This document shows, piece after piece, positions 7,384 to 19,495 of a stretch of DNA of 21,135 nucleotides. The DNA comes from a virus: the IMG/VR virus record IMGVR_UViG_3300042448_002009, positions 1-21,135 of that record. One strand, 5' to 3'. Each line of letters starts with the position of its first letter. Positions within the stretch are counted from its first letter, which is position 1. The position numbers and the translations under genes are program-made. Below the pieces are notes generated by a model. It ran no database searches. It worked only from the letters and a program-made list of their open reading frames with translations, and was not told the origin of the DNA.

Positions 7384-7687
7384 CGCTCAATTTTTTTTGT
7401 AGTAAATAATTTTCTTCATGGTTTAATATTGCCGGCCATTTTCCTTCCGGACATTCACTACCAAGAGATCTTAATTTTAATCCCATACTGCATCCACAAG
7501 AACCGCAACATGGTCCTGTGCCTGGAACTAAACACTTAGATCCTTCTTTATCAAGTAACGGACATCCTTCACATATAACCCATCTTTCACTTGCAATTTC
7601 TTCAACATGTTCAGTTTTAAAGATGTTATTCTTTATTCCTTCCAGAATTTGCCCTTTTGCTTTCCAGATTTTTATAACGCTTTTCAT
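7361..7687 (-). CDS. Eight-cysteine, probably zinc-binding protein
   Basis: The 108-residue protein has eight cysteines at 39, 42, 52, 60, 61, 64, 66 and 79, arranged as CEGCP, KCLVPG, CCGSCGC and SECPEGKW. Two four-cysteine metal sites would account for all of them. Similar small cysteine-rich proteins are, from memory, common in Bacteroidota phages, but without an assigned function. There is no signal peptide, so cytoplasmic zinc ribbons are more likely than disulphides. It overlaps the IHF-like gene by 62 bp in a different frame, one of the longest overlaps in the window; both frames look like real protein. A DNA- or protein-binding adaptor in head assembly or late regulation is a reasonable guess. 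Confidence 0.8.
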   Translation of the reverse strand: MKSVIKIWKAKGQILEGIKNNIFKTEHVEEIASERWVICEGCPLLDKEGSKCLVPGTGPCCGSCGCSMGLKLRSLGSECPEGKWPAILNHEENYLLQKKLSDEQSEKK

Positions 7688-8021
7688 ATATTTCTTTATA
7701 ATAGTTATTACAAATTTCTAAACTTGCCTTTTTTTCTTCCAACATGGACTTAGAGAGATTATACTTTACTACCTTTTTAAAGTCTTCTTGAGAATTGCTA
7801 TTAAGTAATTTTTCAAGGTTTTTAATATTTGATTCAAGTTTTTTTCTGCTAATTCTCAATGTACCTAGCCCATGTAAAAATATTGTTGGATCTTTTAATG
7901 ATTCAATTTTTTTAATTACAACTGAATAATAAAAGTCAACAACATCTCCTACCATTTCAGCAGGTAAGTTTAATTGCTCTGCTGTTTTCTTTATTAGTTC
8001 TTTACTTCTGGTTGGTTTCAA
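7626..8021 (-). CDS. HU/IHF-like DNA-binding protein
   Basis: The 131-residue protein starts with a helical pair (to about residue 43) followed by TIFLHGLGTLRISRKK (47-61), the beta-turn element that in HU/IHF family members reads as a hydrophobic strand, GLGTF and a basic strand. The C-terminal half (65-131) is an added lysine-rich helical region instead of the usual short DNA-clamping arm and last helix, so it is a divergent, longer form. IHF-like subunits encoded beside structural genes are known from crAss-like phages. DNA bending during packaging or compaction is the likely role. It overlaps its upstream neighbour by 20 bp and its downstream neighbour by 62 bp. Confidence 0.72.
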   Translation of the reverse strand: MKPTRSKELIKKTAEQLNLPAEMVGDVVDFYYSVVIKKIESLKDPTIFLHGLGTLRISRKKLESNIKNLEKLLNSNSQEDFKKVVKYNLSKSMLEEKKASLEICNNYYKEIYEKRYKNLESKRANSGRNKE

Positions 8022-9397: not shown

Positions 9398-9425
9398 AGA
9401 TTTACCAGCTAATGAATTTCTAGCC
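9398..9425. repeat. 28-bp direct repeat, copy B (end of the M15 peptidase gene)
   Basis: This copy is identical to 9037-9064. The TAG stop of the M15 peptidase (9422-9420) lies inside it, so that gene ends on sequence that elsewhere is the start of the basic-protein gene. Confidence 0.95.
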
Positions 9426-9884
9426 GTTGTATGGTAAATATTTTGTCCCTCCTGCAGTCTTAACCGCTTTTAGAATTTGTTTTCTCTGTTTCCCCGTAGA
9501 CTCATAACTTACATGAACCCAGTCCGGATTTTTATCTGTACCAAACTCCCAAATCATTTGGTCAAAGTTCAGATTATCTTTAACAAAATCAAAGATCTGT
9601 TTGTTGGTGATTGATGTACCGTCCATGTCAATATCAATCGCTTCACCCTGGCAATGCTGGCTGGACAAACTTCCTCCAATAGCAGTATTCAACTCTTTGC
9701 TTCTGTATCCAGATGAAATACGGATAGGAACACCAAAATGGTCACGGATTGGTTGAAACACATTCTCAGCTAACTTCTTAAAGTTTTCAATGTGTTCTGG
9801 TGTTGGCATATTGCTGATACCTTTTCTTTTTGCAGTTTCACTTCTTGTTACTTCTGACAATGTTAAATTTTTACTTAATTGCAT
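9420..9884 (-). CDS. M15-type zinc peptidase, probable endolysin
   Basis: The 154-residue protein matches the peptidase M15 family that cuts peptide crosslinks in peptidoglycan. The order SGYRSKELN (58-66), GGSLSSQHCQGEAIDID (70-86) and WVHVS (122-126) gives the zinc ligands H77, D84 and H124, with E113 in IWEFG as the probable catalytic acid. The length fits a single catalytic domain without a cell-wall binding module. No signal peptide is present, so release to the periplasm would depend on a holin. It follows the GH24 lysozyme by four bases, giving the phage two hydrolases with different bond specificity. The stop codon lies inside a 28-bp repeat, so the last two residues and the stop may be a recombination product. 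Confidence 0.92.
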   Translation of the reverse strand: MQLSKNLTLSEVTRSETAKRKGISNMPTPEHIENFKKLAENVFQPIRDHFGVPIRISSGYRSKELNTAIGGSLSSQHCQGEAIDIDMDGTSITNKQIFDFVKDNLNFDQMIWEFGTDKNPDWVHVSYESTGKQRKQILKAVKTAGGTKYLPYNG

Positions 9885-9888
9885 GATT

Positions 9889-10347
9889 TTATTTTTTAAA
9901 ATATAATTCTGATTCTGCTTCTCTGCGTCTAACCAAACCTTTTAAAGTTTTACCTCCGGCTTTCACCCATTTCATAAACTCTAATTTGATTGATTCATCA
10001 TTGGGATTTGCATTTACTTTTTTAAGTAAAGTGGAAGCTTTTAAATTTGCTGGTCCTAAGTTGTAAGCAAATGAAACTAATGCATCAAACTGATTCTGTG
10101 TAATAGTATCTACACAGTAGCTGTCTACATATTTCTCAAAGCTCACAAGCATATTTGCCAATAATTCAACAGCCTGCTCTTCTGTTATAGCTGCATCCGT
10201 CATTGTTACCTTTTTACCACCAGGATAAAATGTAGCTCCGTATCCTATTGTAGGGACACCTGCAGAACATTTGTAAGGAGTTCCTCTAAACCCTTCAAAA
10301 GCTTTAATCATCTCAATTCCCGCTTTCCCCGTCTTGGTTATTTTCAT
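9889..10347 (-). CDS. GH24 phage lysozyme
   Basis: The 152-residue protein is a glycan-cutting lysozyme of the T4 type. Motif E18-8aa-C27-5aa-T33 in FEGFRGTPYKCSAGVPTIGYG fits the accepted E-8aa-D/C-5aa-T signature, so the cysteine in place of aspartate is a normal variant. NQFDALVSFAYNLG (about 101-114) is the typical later motif. I use the ATG at 10347, which gives MKITKTGKAGIEMIK and a normal family length. A longer frame to 10407 adds 20 residues unlike the family and extends far into the upstream gene. Even so, the ORF overlaps the membrane-protein gene by 35 bp. No signal peptide is seen, so a holin is required. Confidence 0.92.
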   Translation of the reverse strand: MKITKTGKAGIEMIKAFEGFRGTPYKCSAGVPTIGYGATFYPGGKKVTMTDAAITEEQAVELLANMLVSFEKYVDSYCVDTITQNQFDALVSFAYNLGPANLKASTLLKKVNANPNDESIKLEFMKWVKAGGKTLKGLVRRREAESELYFKK

Positions 10348-10588
10348 TTTGATTGTTTTTTTTGTTTGACATAATTTTACCTGCTGTAGTAATTCCAAAG
10401 GCTCCAAGAGTAATGATCATAAAGCCATCAAAGATAAATTCTTTTATGACCAGTTCTTTACCCCAAATACCTGTAACTACATCAACTATTAAAATAAATA
10501 CCATAGCAAAGAATGCTACTACTCCTACAAATGATTGCTCATTTATTTGATTATTATCTGAAACCAGTTCTTTAAAAATCTTTCTCAT
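10313..10588 (-). CDS. Two-helix membrane protein, holin candidate
   Basis: The 91-residue protein has two hydrophobic segments, GVVAFFAMVFILIVDVVTG (about 22-40) and FMIITLGAFGITTAGKI (about 56-72). A hydrophilic, asparagine-rich C-terminus ends NNQDGESGN. Size, two membrane spans and a charged tail, directly before the lysozyme and overlapping its start by 35 bp, are what class II holins look like. Holins open the inner membrane at a set time and let endolysins out. The family is not recognised with certainty; three other membrane proteins lie in the same module, so which of them triggers lysis cannot be decided from sequence. Confidence 0.75.
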   Translation of the reverse strand: MRKIFKELVSDNNQINEQSFVGVVAFFAMVFILIVDVVTGIWGKELVIKEFIFDGFMIITLGAFGITTAGKIMSNKKNNQNENNQDGESGN

Positions 10589-10594
10589 ATTATT

Positions 10595-11710
10595 TTATTT
10601 TTTTTGTTTACCACCTTCTTGAGTAGCGTACTTAATACCCATGATTGTACCAACTATAGAAAAGGCATTTGTTAATAATACACTAAACATATTACTCCAT
10701 GTTGATCCAATGATTTGAGTATCTTGATTTGTAATAATTGCCATCCAGTATAATACTGTTGTTACAACTCCTACTCCAACTATAACAGCTAAAGCAACTT
10801 TAACAATAATTTTTATTAACTCACCCTGGCTTTTTTTCATTACTACATCCAAATCATTTAGGGCCGCATCTTTTTCTAATTCTATTGAGTGTTTAAGTTT
10901 TTCAGAGTTTTCTAGTTCTATTTGTAAATTTTTTGAAAGGTCATCTATTTTTTTCTTATTGTTTACCGCATCAGTAATATCAGTTGCAATTTTAACTACA
11001 TCTGTGATATTTCCTTTACTGTCCGTTACAGGATTATAAGATGCTTGTAAATAAATAGTAGAGCCGTCTACTTTTCTTCTTTCAAATATTCCATCAAAGT
11101 GCTTACCTTTTCTCAAGCTTTCCCAAAACTTAGCATACTCATCAGACTTTGAATATTCATAACTAACAAAAACACTATGATGTTTACCAATGACTTTACT
11201 TTGTTCATTGGCTTTATAACCCATAGTTTCTAAGAATATAGAATTAACTTCTGTTATAAAACCATCAATATTAAAACCAATAAGAGCTGTACTTCTGTTA
11301 ATGGCATCTATTTGTTTCTTACTATTGACAATTGCACTAATGTCAGTAGCAATCTTCATTATTTTGGTGATCTTACCCTCCTCATTTAAAATAGGATTAT
11401 AAGTTGCTTGAAGATTAATAAGACTTCCATCCTTTTTTCTTCTTTCAAATTCTCCAGTGTAATACTTACCACTTCTAAGAATGTCCCAGAACTTTTCATA
11501 CTCAAGTGACCTTGCATAATCATCACATACAAAAATGCTATGGTGCTTACCAATGATGTCATCATGATTACCTTTACCATAACCCATTGCTTCCAAAAAA
11601 ATGTCATTAACCCCTAGTATAATACCGCTAAGGTCAAAGTAGATAATAGCATTGCTTCTATTAATAGCTTCTAATCTACTTAACAATTCTTCTTTTGGTA
11701 GATTTTTCAT
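10595..11710 (-). CDS. Tandem-PAS sensor protein with C-terminal membrane hairpin
   Basis: The 371-residue protein has two PAS domains (about 10-125 and 132-247) that are copies of each other: IIGKHHSIFV and VIGKHHSVFV, GEFERRKKDGS and GIFERRKVDGS, ATYNPI and ASYNPV, IATDIS and IATDIT. This PAS subtype is known from methyl-accepting chemotaxis and BdlA-like proteins, where it binds flavin, haem or other ligands. A charged coiled coil (about 250-298) leads to two membrane helices (about 301-325 and 338-360) and a short basic tail. No chemotaxis signalling domain, kinase, GGDEF or other output domain is present. The gene sits inside the lysis module, six bases before the two-helix membrane protein. 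It could be a sensor-controlled holin or antiholin, or a modifier of host signalling; the first fits the position best. Confidence 0.88.
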   Translation of the reverse strand: MKNLPKEELLSRLEAINRSNAIIYFDLSGIILGVNDIFLEAMGYGKGNHDDIIGKHHSIFVCDDYARSLEYEKFWDILRSGKYYTGEFERRKKDGSLINLQATYNPILNEEGKITKIMKIATDISAIVNSKKQIDAINRSTALIGFNIDGFITEVNSIFLETMGYKANEQSKVIGKHHSVFVSYEYSKSDEYAKFWESLRKGKHFDGIFERRKVDGSTIYLQASYNPVTDSKGNITDVVKIATDITDAVNNKKKIDDLSKNLQIELENSEKLKHSIELEKDAALNDLDVVMKKSQGELIKIIVKVALAVIVGVGVVTTVLYWMAIITNQDTQIIGSTWSNMFSVLLTNAFSIVGTIMGIKYATQEGGKQKK

Positions 11711-11719
11711 TTTTGGTTG

Positions 11720-12013
11720 TTATTTTTTAAATTTTTTTACCAAAATTTTAGATATTAACTTACCTGCTGCTTTCAATAAAGAATTTTTAGAATCTACTAC
11801 TACTGTGGTTCCTTCATCAGTTTTTTTTACATGAATATCTAAATTCTCTCCATCTAACTTAAACTCTTTATTGTTGCCTTCTTTATTAAGTTCAACATCT
11901 ATTTTTGGAGTATCAACATTTACTTTTATGTTATCTCCTTGTTTTTCAATTTTGACATCTGCTTTTTTAGTATCAACATCAATTTTGAAATCTTCAATTT
12001 TTTTCTTTGCCAT
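11720..12013 (-). CDS. Beta-repeat protein with cationic amphipathic C-terminus
   Basis: The 97-residue protein shows alternating short strands and turns: FKIDVDTKKADVKIEK, DNIKVNVDTPKIDVELNK, FKLDGENLDIHVKK, TTVVVDSK. This gives about four similar hairpin-like units with D/V/I alternation. The end (LLKAAGKLISKILVKKFKK, about 79-97) is a strongly cationic amphipathic helix like membrane-active peptides. No family is recognised and no signal peptide is present. It lies between a small hydrophobic protein and the PAS-membrane protein, three and nine bases away. A membrane-disrupting, spanin-like or PAS-partner role would fit the position; these are guesses based on the helix and the neighbourhood. 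Confidence 0.75.
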   Translation of the reverse strand: MAKKKIEDFKIDVDTKKADVKIEKQGDNIKVNVDTPKIDVELNKEGNNKEFKLDGENLDIHVKKTDEGTTVVVDSKNSLLKAAGKLISKILVKKFKK

Positions 12014-12016
12014 GAC

Positions 12017-12241
12017 TTATTTTGTTTTATGATTATCAACTGTTAATTGTGACAACGTAGCTGTTACCCCACCAACCGCTACAAGATACCCCGCACCAGT
12101 TAAAATTGCTGCCGGTAATGCTATCGGTGCTGCAAGTAAAGCTGCTCCCACAGCTCCAGCTACTAGTCCAATTCTTTGTACTTTTTTCCAAAATTTTGGT
12201 GTTTTTGCTTTCCATCTTTCTTTAATTGTTTTCTCTTCCAT
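12017..12241 (-). CDS. Small hydrophobic lysis-module protein
   Basis: I use the ATG at 12241, giving 74 residues beginning MEEKTIKERWKAKTPKFWKK. An ATG at 12262 would add seven residues and a longer overlap. The N-terminus is positive with tryptophans, followed by about 45 hydrophobic, alanine- and glycine-rich residues (from IGLVAGAVGAALLAA to VGGVTATLSQL), enough for two membrane spans with a short turn. It starts within the end of the holin-4-like gene (20-bp overlap). The shape is holin-like, and similar small proteins are common, from memory, in Bacteroidota phages. It could be a second holin, an antiholin or a pinholin. Confidence 0.75.
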   Translation of the reverse strand: MEEKTIKERWKAKTPKFWKKVQRIGLVAGAVGAALLAAPIALPAAILTGAGYLVAVGGVTATLSQLTVDNHKTK

Positions 12242-12767
12242 TATTTTTTGTTTTAGGTTCATCTTTAATGTACTTTGACAGTTGTCGAAGTATAGGTAAA
12301 TACTCAGTCCATCCTAATCTTTTAAAGTTCTCTAAGTTAGACCAAATTAAATTAATTAACACAAAGTTATAAAATCCATAGTGAAGCCAAGCATAAATAT
12401 TAAAGTCCCAACTAAAAAAAGATTTAACTGGTACATGAACTGCTAATGCATGAGAACATCCAATCATGATCATATAAATTAATAATTTTAACCAACCTTT
12501 TCCAAATAATTCTGAGTCAAATGTTTTGTTTTCTTTTCTAGAAGCTCTTATTCCAGTAAACATTTCTAAACCAAAAAGAATAATTAAAACTATTCCTACA
12601 GGTAACTCAATCCCAAATATTACATTAAAGTAATAAGCAATTGTTGCCAGTATTGTACTTGCACTAATTGCAATTCCTGCTAAGTTTGGATGAAATGCAC
12701 TATTTAAAAAATGATCTACGTTGTTATATCCGGCACTTTGAACTATTTTACAAAACATTGTTTTCAT
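12222..12767 (-). CDS. Holin of the phage holin-4 type
   Basis: The 181-residue protein has about four membrane spans: AGIAISASTILATIAYYFNV (near 30-50), VGIVLIILFGLEMFTGI (near 57-73), LKLLIYMIMIGCSHALAV (near 93-110) and NIYAWLHYGFYNFVLINLIW (near 123-142). The loop after the second span reads TGIRASRKENKTFDSELFGKGWLK. This follows the pattern of the phage_holin_4 family: a conserved glycine after the span, a basic stretch, then a serine/glycine turn before the next helix. It is the first gene of the lysis module, after the fibre genes and 29 bases past the last one. The C-terminal tail is charged and cytoplasmic. Confidence 0.78.
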   Translation of the reverse strand: MKTMFCKIVQSAGYNNVDHFLNSAFHPNLAGIAISASTILATIAYYFNVIFGIELPVGIVLIILFGLEMFTGIRASRKENKTFDSELFGKGWLKLLIYMIMIGCSHALAVHVPVKSFFSWDFNIYAWLHYGFYNFVLINLIWSNLENFKRLGWTEYLPILRQLSKYIKDEPKTKNNGRENN

Positions 12768-18877: not shown

Positions 18878-19495
18878 TTATTTATTTACAGGGGTTAAAC
18901 ATACTTCTTCCAATCTTCTTAGAACATCTTTTGCAGAATGTCCATCATAAGATTGCTTAACAATTTCTACTTCTTCACATTGGAATAAATCCCAATCTTC
19001 CATTTTGTAATGGTTGCTAATTTGACCACCTGGTAAAACTGCCATTACAATAAACCATCCTCCACCAAAACAAAGTGTGCCATCGGAATGTCTGATTGAT
19101 TTATGTACATCATACAATCCTTCTTTAGCCCAAGCATTGAATGCAGCCGCATTGTACATCTTGCGGAAATCATACAACTCATTAAAAGTGTGGTAGCCAT
19201 CAGAGATTTCTCCTTTATCAACTAGACCTTCTTTATCATAAGACTTAAAGAAAATATCTGGTTTGCATGGATAAAATTCACCATGGATTCCTTTGATAAT
19301 CATATCACCGATACTTGCAAAAATTGGTCCTTCTAATGTTTGAATTTTAATTTTTGGATCTGCTGTGTTGTCATCAAAAACAATTTCTTGTTCTTGCTCC
19401 ATGAACTCAGATATTGCATCCAATGTACCTAATGTTGCATCAACAAATTCTATAGCCTCAATTGTAATGGGCTTTTTTGTAAATCTATTTACCAT
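18878..19495 (-). CDS. Two-domain phage protein, unknown function
   Basis: I use the ATG at 19495 (MVNRFTKKPITIEAIEF, 205 residues). A start at 19531 would add 12 lysine-rich residues lying inside the coding part of the 39-residue gene. The first 90 residues read TKKPITIEAIEF, IQTLEGPIFASIGDMIIKGI and GEFYPCKPDIFFKSYD. From memory this matches the small phage domain with the pattern KP-IEA, T-EG and GD-IIKG-GE-YPCKPDIF. The last 100 residues (SDGYHTFNELYDFRKM, DGTLCFGGGWFIVM, SYDGHSAKDVLRRLEEV) match another phage domain usually found separately. Neither has a firm function. The fusion is notable. Confidence 0.82.
   Translation of the reverse strand: MVNRFTKKPITIEAIEFVDATLGTLDAISEFMEQEQEIVFDDNTADPKIKIQTLEGPIFASIGDMIIKGIHGEFYPCKPDIFFKSYDKEGLVDKGEISDGYHTFNELYDFRKMYNAAAFNAWAKEGLYDVHKSIRHSDGTLCFGGGWFIVMAVLPGGQISNHYKMEDWDLFQCEEVEIVKQSYDGHSAKDVLRRLEEVCLTPVNK

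Follow-up and report, generated by a model that had tools for sequence, protein, structure and literature searches.

A tandem-PAS gene lies in the lysis cassette of a virus record

The window analyzed here is the whole of a 21-kb virus record (21,135 nucleotides), with its main genes on the minus strand. Read 5' to 3' on that strand, tail-region genes (assigned by eye) are followed by a Phage_holin_4_1-type holin (positions 12222 to 12767; Pfam E value, 2.3e-8), an 81-amino-acid small membrane protein (12017 to 12262) that locus comparison showed to be a recurrent upstream partner of the PAS gene, and a 97-amino-acid charged protein (11720 to 12013) that lies directly upstream of the PAS gene and ends 9 bases before its start. 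The PAS gene itself (10595 to 11710) begins with ATG and encodes 371 amino acids. It is followed by hol91 (10313 to 10588), a 91-amino-acid, two-transmembrane (two-TM), holin-like gene that tends to accompany the PAS gene and has no curated Pfam match, and then by two endolysins. The first is a GH24 lysozyme (9889 to 10347; Phage_lysozyme E value, 7.9e-43; phrog_7 endolysin), whose ATG at 10347 makes it overlap the end of hol91, and the second is an M15 peptidase (9420 to 9884; Peptidase_M15_3 E value, 2.1e-21; phrog_894). All of these features are on the minus strand. Elsewhere in the window, an HU/IHF-like DNA-binding gene at 7626 to 8021 fell just under the Pfam cutoff (21.3 versus 22.4 bits), and 50 bases at 19251 to 19300, inside a 217-amino-acid gene, are 94% identical to Streptococcus phage 33888, an isolated short match.

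Pfam recovered PAS_3 in two stretches of the protein (E value, 6.7e-25), which makes it a tandem PAS_3 protein. PAS domain 1 covers residues 14 to 131 (minus strand, 11318 to 11671; Pfam PAS_3 and alignments to NifL and MmoS), and PAS domain 2 covers residues 135 to 253 (minus strand, 10952 to 11308; aligned to Aer, 8dik). Residues 246 to 327 (minus strand, 10730 to 10975) form an unbroken helix in which a coiled-coil signaling helix runs into membrane helix 1 (about residues 301 to 323), and residues 331 to 363 (TQIIGSTWSNMFSVLLTNAFSIVGTIMGIKYAT; minus strand, 10622 to 10720) make up a turn and membrane helix 2. The AlphaFold2 model (mean pLDDT, 80.6; pTM, 0.38) shows two confident PAS folds, with pLDDT mostly about 90 over the PAS block, then one continuous helix spanning residues 246 to 327, and a further helix at residues 332 to 367. 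Because the pTM is low, the predicted placement of the domains relative to each other is undetermined. Hydropathy gave two hydrophobic segments, centered near residues 301 to 323 and 341 to 359, which fall inside the modeled long helix and second helix; an N-in/C-in topology is inferred only. The Pfam search revealed no kinase, cyclase, MCP, or other output domain, with both HATPase_c and the MCP signaling domain absent. The protein consists of two PAS domains, one long helix, and a two-helix membrane hairpin, without a known output domain.

A first-pass annotation, made from the sequence alone, had described two PAS domains, a coiled coil, and two membrane helices with no output domain, encoded between holin-like genes and the lysozyme. 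The layout was confirmed by Pfam, AlphaFold2, and hydropathy, and the position by the Phage_holin_4_1, hol91, GH24, and M15 assignments. The claim that the PAS domains are near-identical was too strong, the two being 56% identical.

Neither Pfam nor PHROG gave a holin family match for the PAS protein or a clear match for the hairpin. Along helix 2, S, T, N, and G residues line one face (P = 0.0018), in a stripe test that was picked after inspection of the sequence; the hydrophobic moment of the helix was not significant (P = 0.17). Comparison of hol91 with the hairpin by hhalign, on shallow alignments, showed no profile similarity and no support for a common origin, and common ancestry of the two was rejected on that basis.

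Conservation of the tandem-PAS protein

Two scans of IMG/VR gave 172 and 258 confirmed relatives of the tandem-PAS protein, and 80 relatives from each were retained that were at least 81% identical to their own query and nearly full length. Across 80 homologues, the median pN of the gene was 0.060, with a pS of 0.506, and the terminase in the same phages had a pN of 0.242. These figures indicate that the tandem-PAS protein is under strong purifying selection and evolves more slowly than the terminase. A reading of 10595 to 11710 as a chance open reading frame was rejected on the same pN and pS values.

Residues 331 to 363 are invariant among 17 diverse tandem-PAS members. This invariance was not built in, as the first scan used no helix 2 search pattern. 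Since hol91 varies much more than membrane helix 2, helix 2 more probably pairs with another copy of itself or with a conserved component of the host than with hol91, and a TM contact between helix 2 and hol91 fits poorly. Every contig tested carried one PAS gene. The sole strong match to a "phage" in GenBank, MT836939 (L082), was set aside; it resembles a PAS-PAS-MCP contig of bacterial origin and is uninformative on phage context. Read by eye, this "Bacteriophage sp." record (MT836939.1) looks like a fragment of a bacterial chromosome, with PAS-PAS-MCP and GGDEF/EAL-type proteins.

Proximity to lysis genes persists across phage backbones

There were 84 distinct tandem-PAS loci, 80 of which had genes on both flanks and were used for counts; GH24, M15, GH19, amidase, and a peptidoglycan-binding protein called LDT-like by eye were counted as endolysins. 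An endolysin lay within three genes of the tandem-PAS gene in 74 of the 80 loci, hol91 in 68, and one or the other in 78, with neither found nearby in L025 and L124. On contigs of at least 13 kb, 29 of 32 PAS genes were within three genes of an endolysin, compared with only 3 of 207 genes lying eight or more genes away. Loci within one clade are not independent of each other. The terminases of PAS-gene contigs gave strong matches to phrog_6681 in six contigs and to phrog_2 in four others, and proximity to lysis genes persists over at least two unrelated terminase classes and through changes in endolysin, spacing, and order. The first-pass annotation had inferred a lysis role from position and had held that homologues consistently away from lysis genes would refute it; that test did not refute the role, which is supported by the 78 loci. 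Where hol91 was not near the PAS gene, it was often elsewhere on the contig: of the 13 contigs that reach at least 38 kb, 11 have it. Two long contigs, G002 and G004, showed no hol91.

Other neighbors were observed in some loci. In L048 (7232 to 7747) and nine similar loci, a unimolecular-spanin-like protein with an N-terminal lipobox and a C-terminal TM segment is encoded two genes upstream of the PAS gene. In L038 (3520 to 4140), L045 (9138 to 9740), and L054 (9138 to 9740), the PAS gene directly adjoins a gene for a TM-anchored protein that looks GAF-like (FHNGGHFYPTG); Pfam gives this protein no GAF match, and its relatives, which belong to a Microcystis phage and to uncultured phages, are distant.

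The PAS gene occupies an exchangeable slot upstream of hol91

Scans with single hol91 proteins as queries yielded 122 distinct loci. The PAS gene is missing from 98 of them, so it is not an obligatory component of the lysis machinery. Upstream of hol91, 26 loci had the PAS gene only, 112 had only coil-type genes (membrane or secreted, mostly coiled-coil genes), 2 had neither, and none had both. The PAS gene and coil-type genes are mutually exclusive in this slot, and in the colinear cassettes L184 and L203 a coil pair and the PAS gene replace each other. In an isolate, Flavobacterium phage immuto, an unannotated relative of hol91 (L408, 5938 to 6246) lies upstream of a chitinase-type endolysin and a holin, and there is no PAS gene at this site.

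From its occupation of a slot for coiled-coil membrane genes, the PAS protein might be read as a spanin-like or structural part of the envelope machinery. The mutual exclusion with coil-type genes upstream of hol91 speaks for this, as does one coil family having weak Rz-like matches. Against it, the PAS domains, the long helix, and both termini are predicted to be cytoplasmic, and in several loci spanin candidates, either lipobox-plus-TM or Rz-like, coexist with the PAS gene, directly upstream. We regard this reading as very unlikely.

It is possible, though unlikely, that the protein is instead a sensor-gated holin or small channel, in which the PAS state would open a hairpin oligomer, the membrane would be depolarized or perforated, and lysis would be triggered with hol91 as a helper. 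The two-TM hairpin, the one-sided S/T/N/G stripe of helix 2, a strict invariance suggestive of self-assembly with fixed geometry, and the two long contigs in which no hol91 was seen are all in favor. Against it, hol91 is present in most of the contigs of 38 kb or more, most related cassettes, including that of the isolate Flavobacterium phage, have hol91 and an endolysin without the PAS gene, and the hairpin has no profile similarity to hol91, with the reservation that the alignments were shallow.

One hairpin is found behind several sensors

In three hol91 loci (L173, L174, and L176), hol91 and lysozyme are found with a 540-amino-acid membrane PAS-PAS histidine kinase, a 143-amino-acid receiver, and a 189-amino-acid coiled-coil protein, here called the docking-helix protein, that ends in the window-type hairpin. 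The kinase-receiver-hairpin row beside hol91 and lysozyme (L173, 4708 to 7332) has hundreds of IMG/VR relatives, and Pfam matches to HATPase_c (E value, 1.7e-12) and Response_reg (E value, 1.6e-8) establish its two-component membership. An IMG/VR scan gave 248 relatives of the docking-helix protein, and among 56 distinct loci, 54 have the receiver immediately upstream and 49 the kinase upstream. No match to this protein was found in annotated phages. It shares about 60% identity with the window protein over the coil and hairpin, with helix 2 nearly unchanged, and AlphaFold2 likewise modeled a long helix running into the membrane. The conservation of TWSNMFGI in this family is partly built in, as that stretch served as a search pattern. 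In L495, a GAF domain (E value, 2.3e-17) is fused to the window-type coil and hairpin in a 341-amino-acid protein encoded directly upstream of hol91.

A DNA search pattern covering part of the hairpin matched at least 120 stretches of IMG/VR, a sample not chosen for lysis genes. It included 37 tandem-PAS, 33 kinase-receiver-hairpin, 17 single-PAS, and 1 GAF-hairpin arrangements. Where both flanks were available, lysis genes lay within three genes in 24 of 25 tandem-PAS loci, 10 of 21 kinase-receiver-hairpin loci, all 12 single-PAS loci, and the 1 GAF locus. The hairpin thus appears to be a portable domain carried behind tandem PAS, single PAS, GAF, or a kinase-receiver relay, its role as the output being inferred from sequence, context, and modeling only. 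That the GAF and two-component versions share this hairpin had not been seen in the first-pass annotation. In L363 and L359, the kinase-receiver-hairpin row was observed away from recognized lysis genes, beside late-sigma-factor-like and tail/baseplate-like genes (by eye).

These counts bear on another alternative, that the protein senses host state or superinfection in the late phase without acting on lysis and accompanies the lysis genes because these move as an exchangeable block. The two-component version is away from recognized lysis genes in 11 of 21 loci, and the conservation of helix 2 would suit a conserved host partner. However, the PAS gene stays close despite differing endolysin classes, gene orders, and backbones, the single-PAS and GAF forms are also near lysis genes, and the PAS gene fills a slot in the cassette that is otherwise taken by membrane or secreted genes of the coil type. 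We consider this alternative unlikely.

Origin of the module and its putative ligand

A model of the hairpin found no match in 395 class-level and 395 phylum-level Bacteroidota genomes (partly overlapping sets); the same model detected phage copies at E values of 1e-55 to 1e-60. The hairpin has so far been found only in phages, with no cellular homologue in the genomes searched, and a host origin was set aside as unsupported by either draw. The tandem PAS of the window protein is 38 to 41% identical, over residues 8 to 301, to Flavobacteriia GAF-PAS-PAS hybrid kinases. As these are the closest relatives of the PAS part, we infer that a host protein of this kind was probably the source of the sensor, which became fused to an output part of phage origin. 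Reading by eye also showed tandem PAS of the window type in a bacterial contig, ahead of an MCP-like region, and in Winogradskyella, ahead of a hybrid histidine kinase, and the initial description of the domains as of the chemotaxis/BdlA type was accordingly fair.

The best solved-structure relatives of the phage PAS domains by sequence were the FAD sensors MmoS, NifL, and Aer, and MmoS was also the top structural match by fold; FixL and DosP matched by fold only. In FAD-binding PAS domains, a tryptophan of F-alpha is the main determinant and a histidine and an asparagine are secondary, with every cluster conserving two or more of the three (PMC10468136). The corresponding flavin-contact residues of Aer are W70, H53, and N85 (PMC9668731). 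His57 and Trp75 of PAS 1, and His178 and Trp196 of PAS 2 (Aer 8dik alignment), are at the H53 and W70 positions and are invariant in the alignment; the Asn85 position is occupied by Arg90 and Arg211. Both domains meet the residue criterion for FAD-binding clusters 4, 9, and 14, a Trp plus His or Asn (PMC10468136). A LOV domain reading was rejected, the reactive cysteine being missing and His57 and His178 standing at the Aer 53 position. The tandem-PAS proteins BdlA and McpS are predicted to bind FAD (PMC8694187). Given these predictions, the Trp and His kept in both domains, and the FAD-sensor relatives, FAD is the leading guess for the ligand; binding is inferred, and a heme reading was not examined. 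Redox sensing, proposed in the first-pass annotation, gains support from the FAD signature residues, with cofactor binding and an effect on lysis remaining inferences.

A proposed role in lysis timing

The reading that we favor, by a modest margin and on sequence, context, and modeling only, is that of a membrane-anchored redox or energy sensor that regulates the timing of phage lysis. The two cytoplasmic PAS domains, most likely FAD binding, would respond to redox or energy conditions in the host. Changes in the PAS domains would move the one continuous helix, by which the signal would reach the membrane hairpin as the output part, and the hairpin, probably as an oligomer, would alter the inner membrane or the holin complex. 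A change in its state would advance or delay holin triggering, so that endolysin is released earlier or held back. Membrane depolarization triggers holins prematurely, and a hairpin that altered membrane potential would fit with this.

Position, independent backbones, exchange of the sensor front end, slot exchange, selection, the FAD residues, and the unbroken helix support this lysis-regulator model. Domain layout, conservation, near-constant proximity to endolysin and hol91, the swapping of sensor modules in front of one hairpin, and slot exchange are shown directly; FAD binding, topology, the direction of the effect, any action on lysis, and the mode of action of the hairpin are inferred and unproven. 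Against the model, all functional evidence is guilt by position, and the two-component version is near recognized lysis genes in fewer than half of its loci. A bolder reading, in which a phage-specific hairpin on interchangeable sensors gates lysis as a general signal-controlled switch in phages of Bacteroidota-type hosts, remains tentative, and we would not yet favor it.

If the proposal is true, a modular sensor-to-membrane output exists in hundreds of phage contigs with unrelated backbones, and pre-lysis reading of redox or energy state becomes testable. Phage-encoded two-component systems would gain a physical, nontranscriptional output, and the hairpin would be a new signaling output domain, usable in engineered signal-controlled lysis.

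Comparison with known systems

A literature search, with most subscription journals outside its reach, found no paper that links PAS domains to phage lysis or describes phage two-component systems encoded near lysis genes. A hairpin output shared by PAS, GAF, and two-component sensors is, as far as this partial search extends, a new point, with no family or paper found that describes the hairpin.

The phage tandem PAS is of what we take, going by the motif, to be the BdlA type. BdlA and McpS of Pseudomonas aeruginosa (PAS-PAS-MCP) likewise have two tandem PAS domains, both predicted to bind FAD (PMC8694187), but the phage-encoded protein has a membrane hairpin in place of the methyl-accepting domain. 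MmoS, NifL, and Aer are the closest solved structures by sequence (MmoS also by fold), with the FAD-pocket Trp and His conserved, whereas the phage protein has no kinase, HAMP, or MCP output and has Arg at the Aer Asn85 position. Where the Flavobacteriia GAF-PAS-PAS hybrid histidine kinases carry kinase and receiver domains, the phage protein has the hairpin instead.

Class II holins also have a two-TM hairpin beside endolysins, and for the phage protein an N-in/C-in topology like theirs is only inferred. Unlike them, the phage protein is a 370-amino-acid sensor with no holin family match, and its helix 2 is nearly invariant whereas hol91 varies. A PAS domain is found in another phage-encoded sensor, VqmA of vibriophage VP882, a quorum-sensing receptor (PMC8284805). 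VP882 VqmA affects the lysis-lysogeny decision; it differs in being a DNA-binding transcription factor and not a membrane protein in a lysis cassette.

Lysis timing is usually seen as a clock of holin accumulation, and T4 lysis inhibition is the best-known sensed exception. The T4 antiholins RI and RIII tie lysis timing to a signal, RI sensing from the periplasm. They have no PAS or GAF sensor and, to our knowledge, no homology to the hairpin. The phage protein described here would likewise couple the timing of lysis to a signal.
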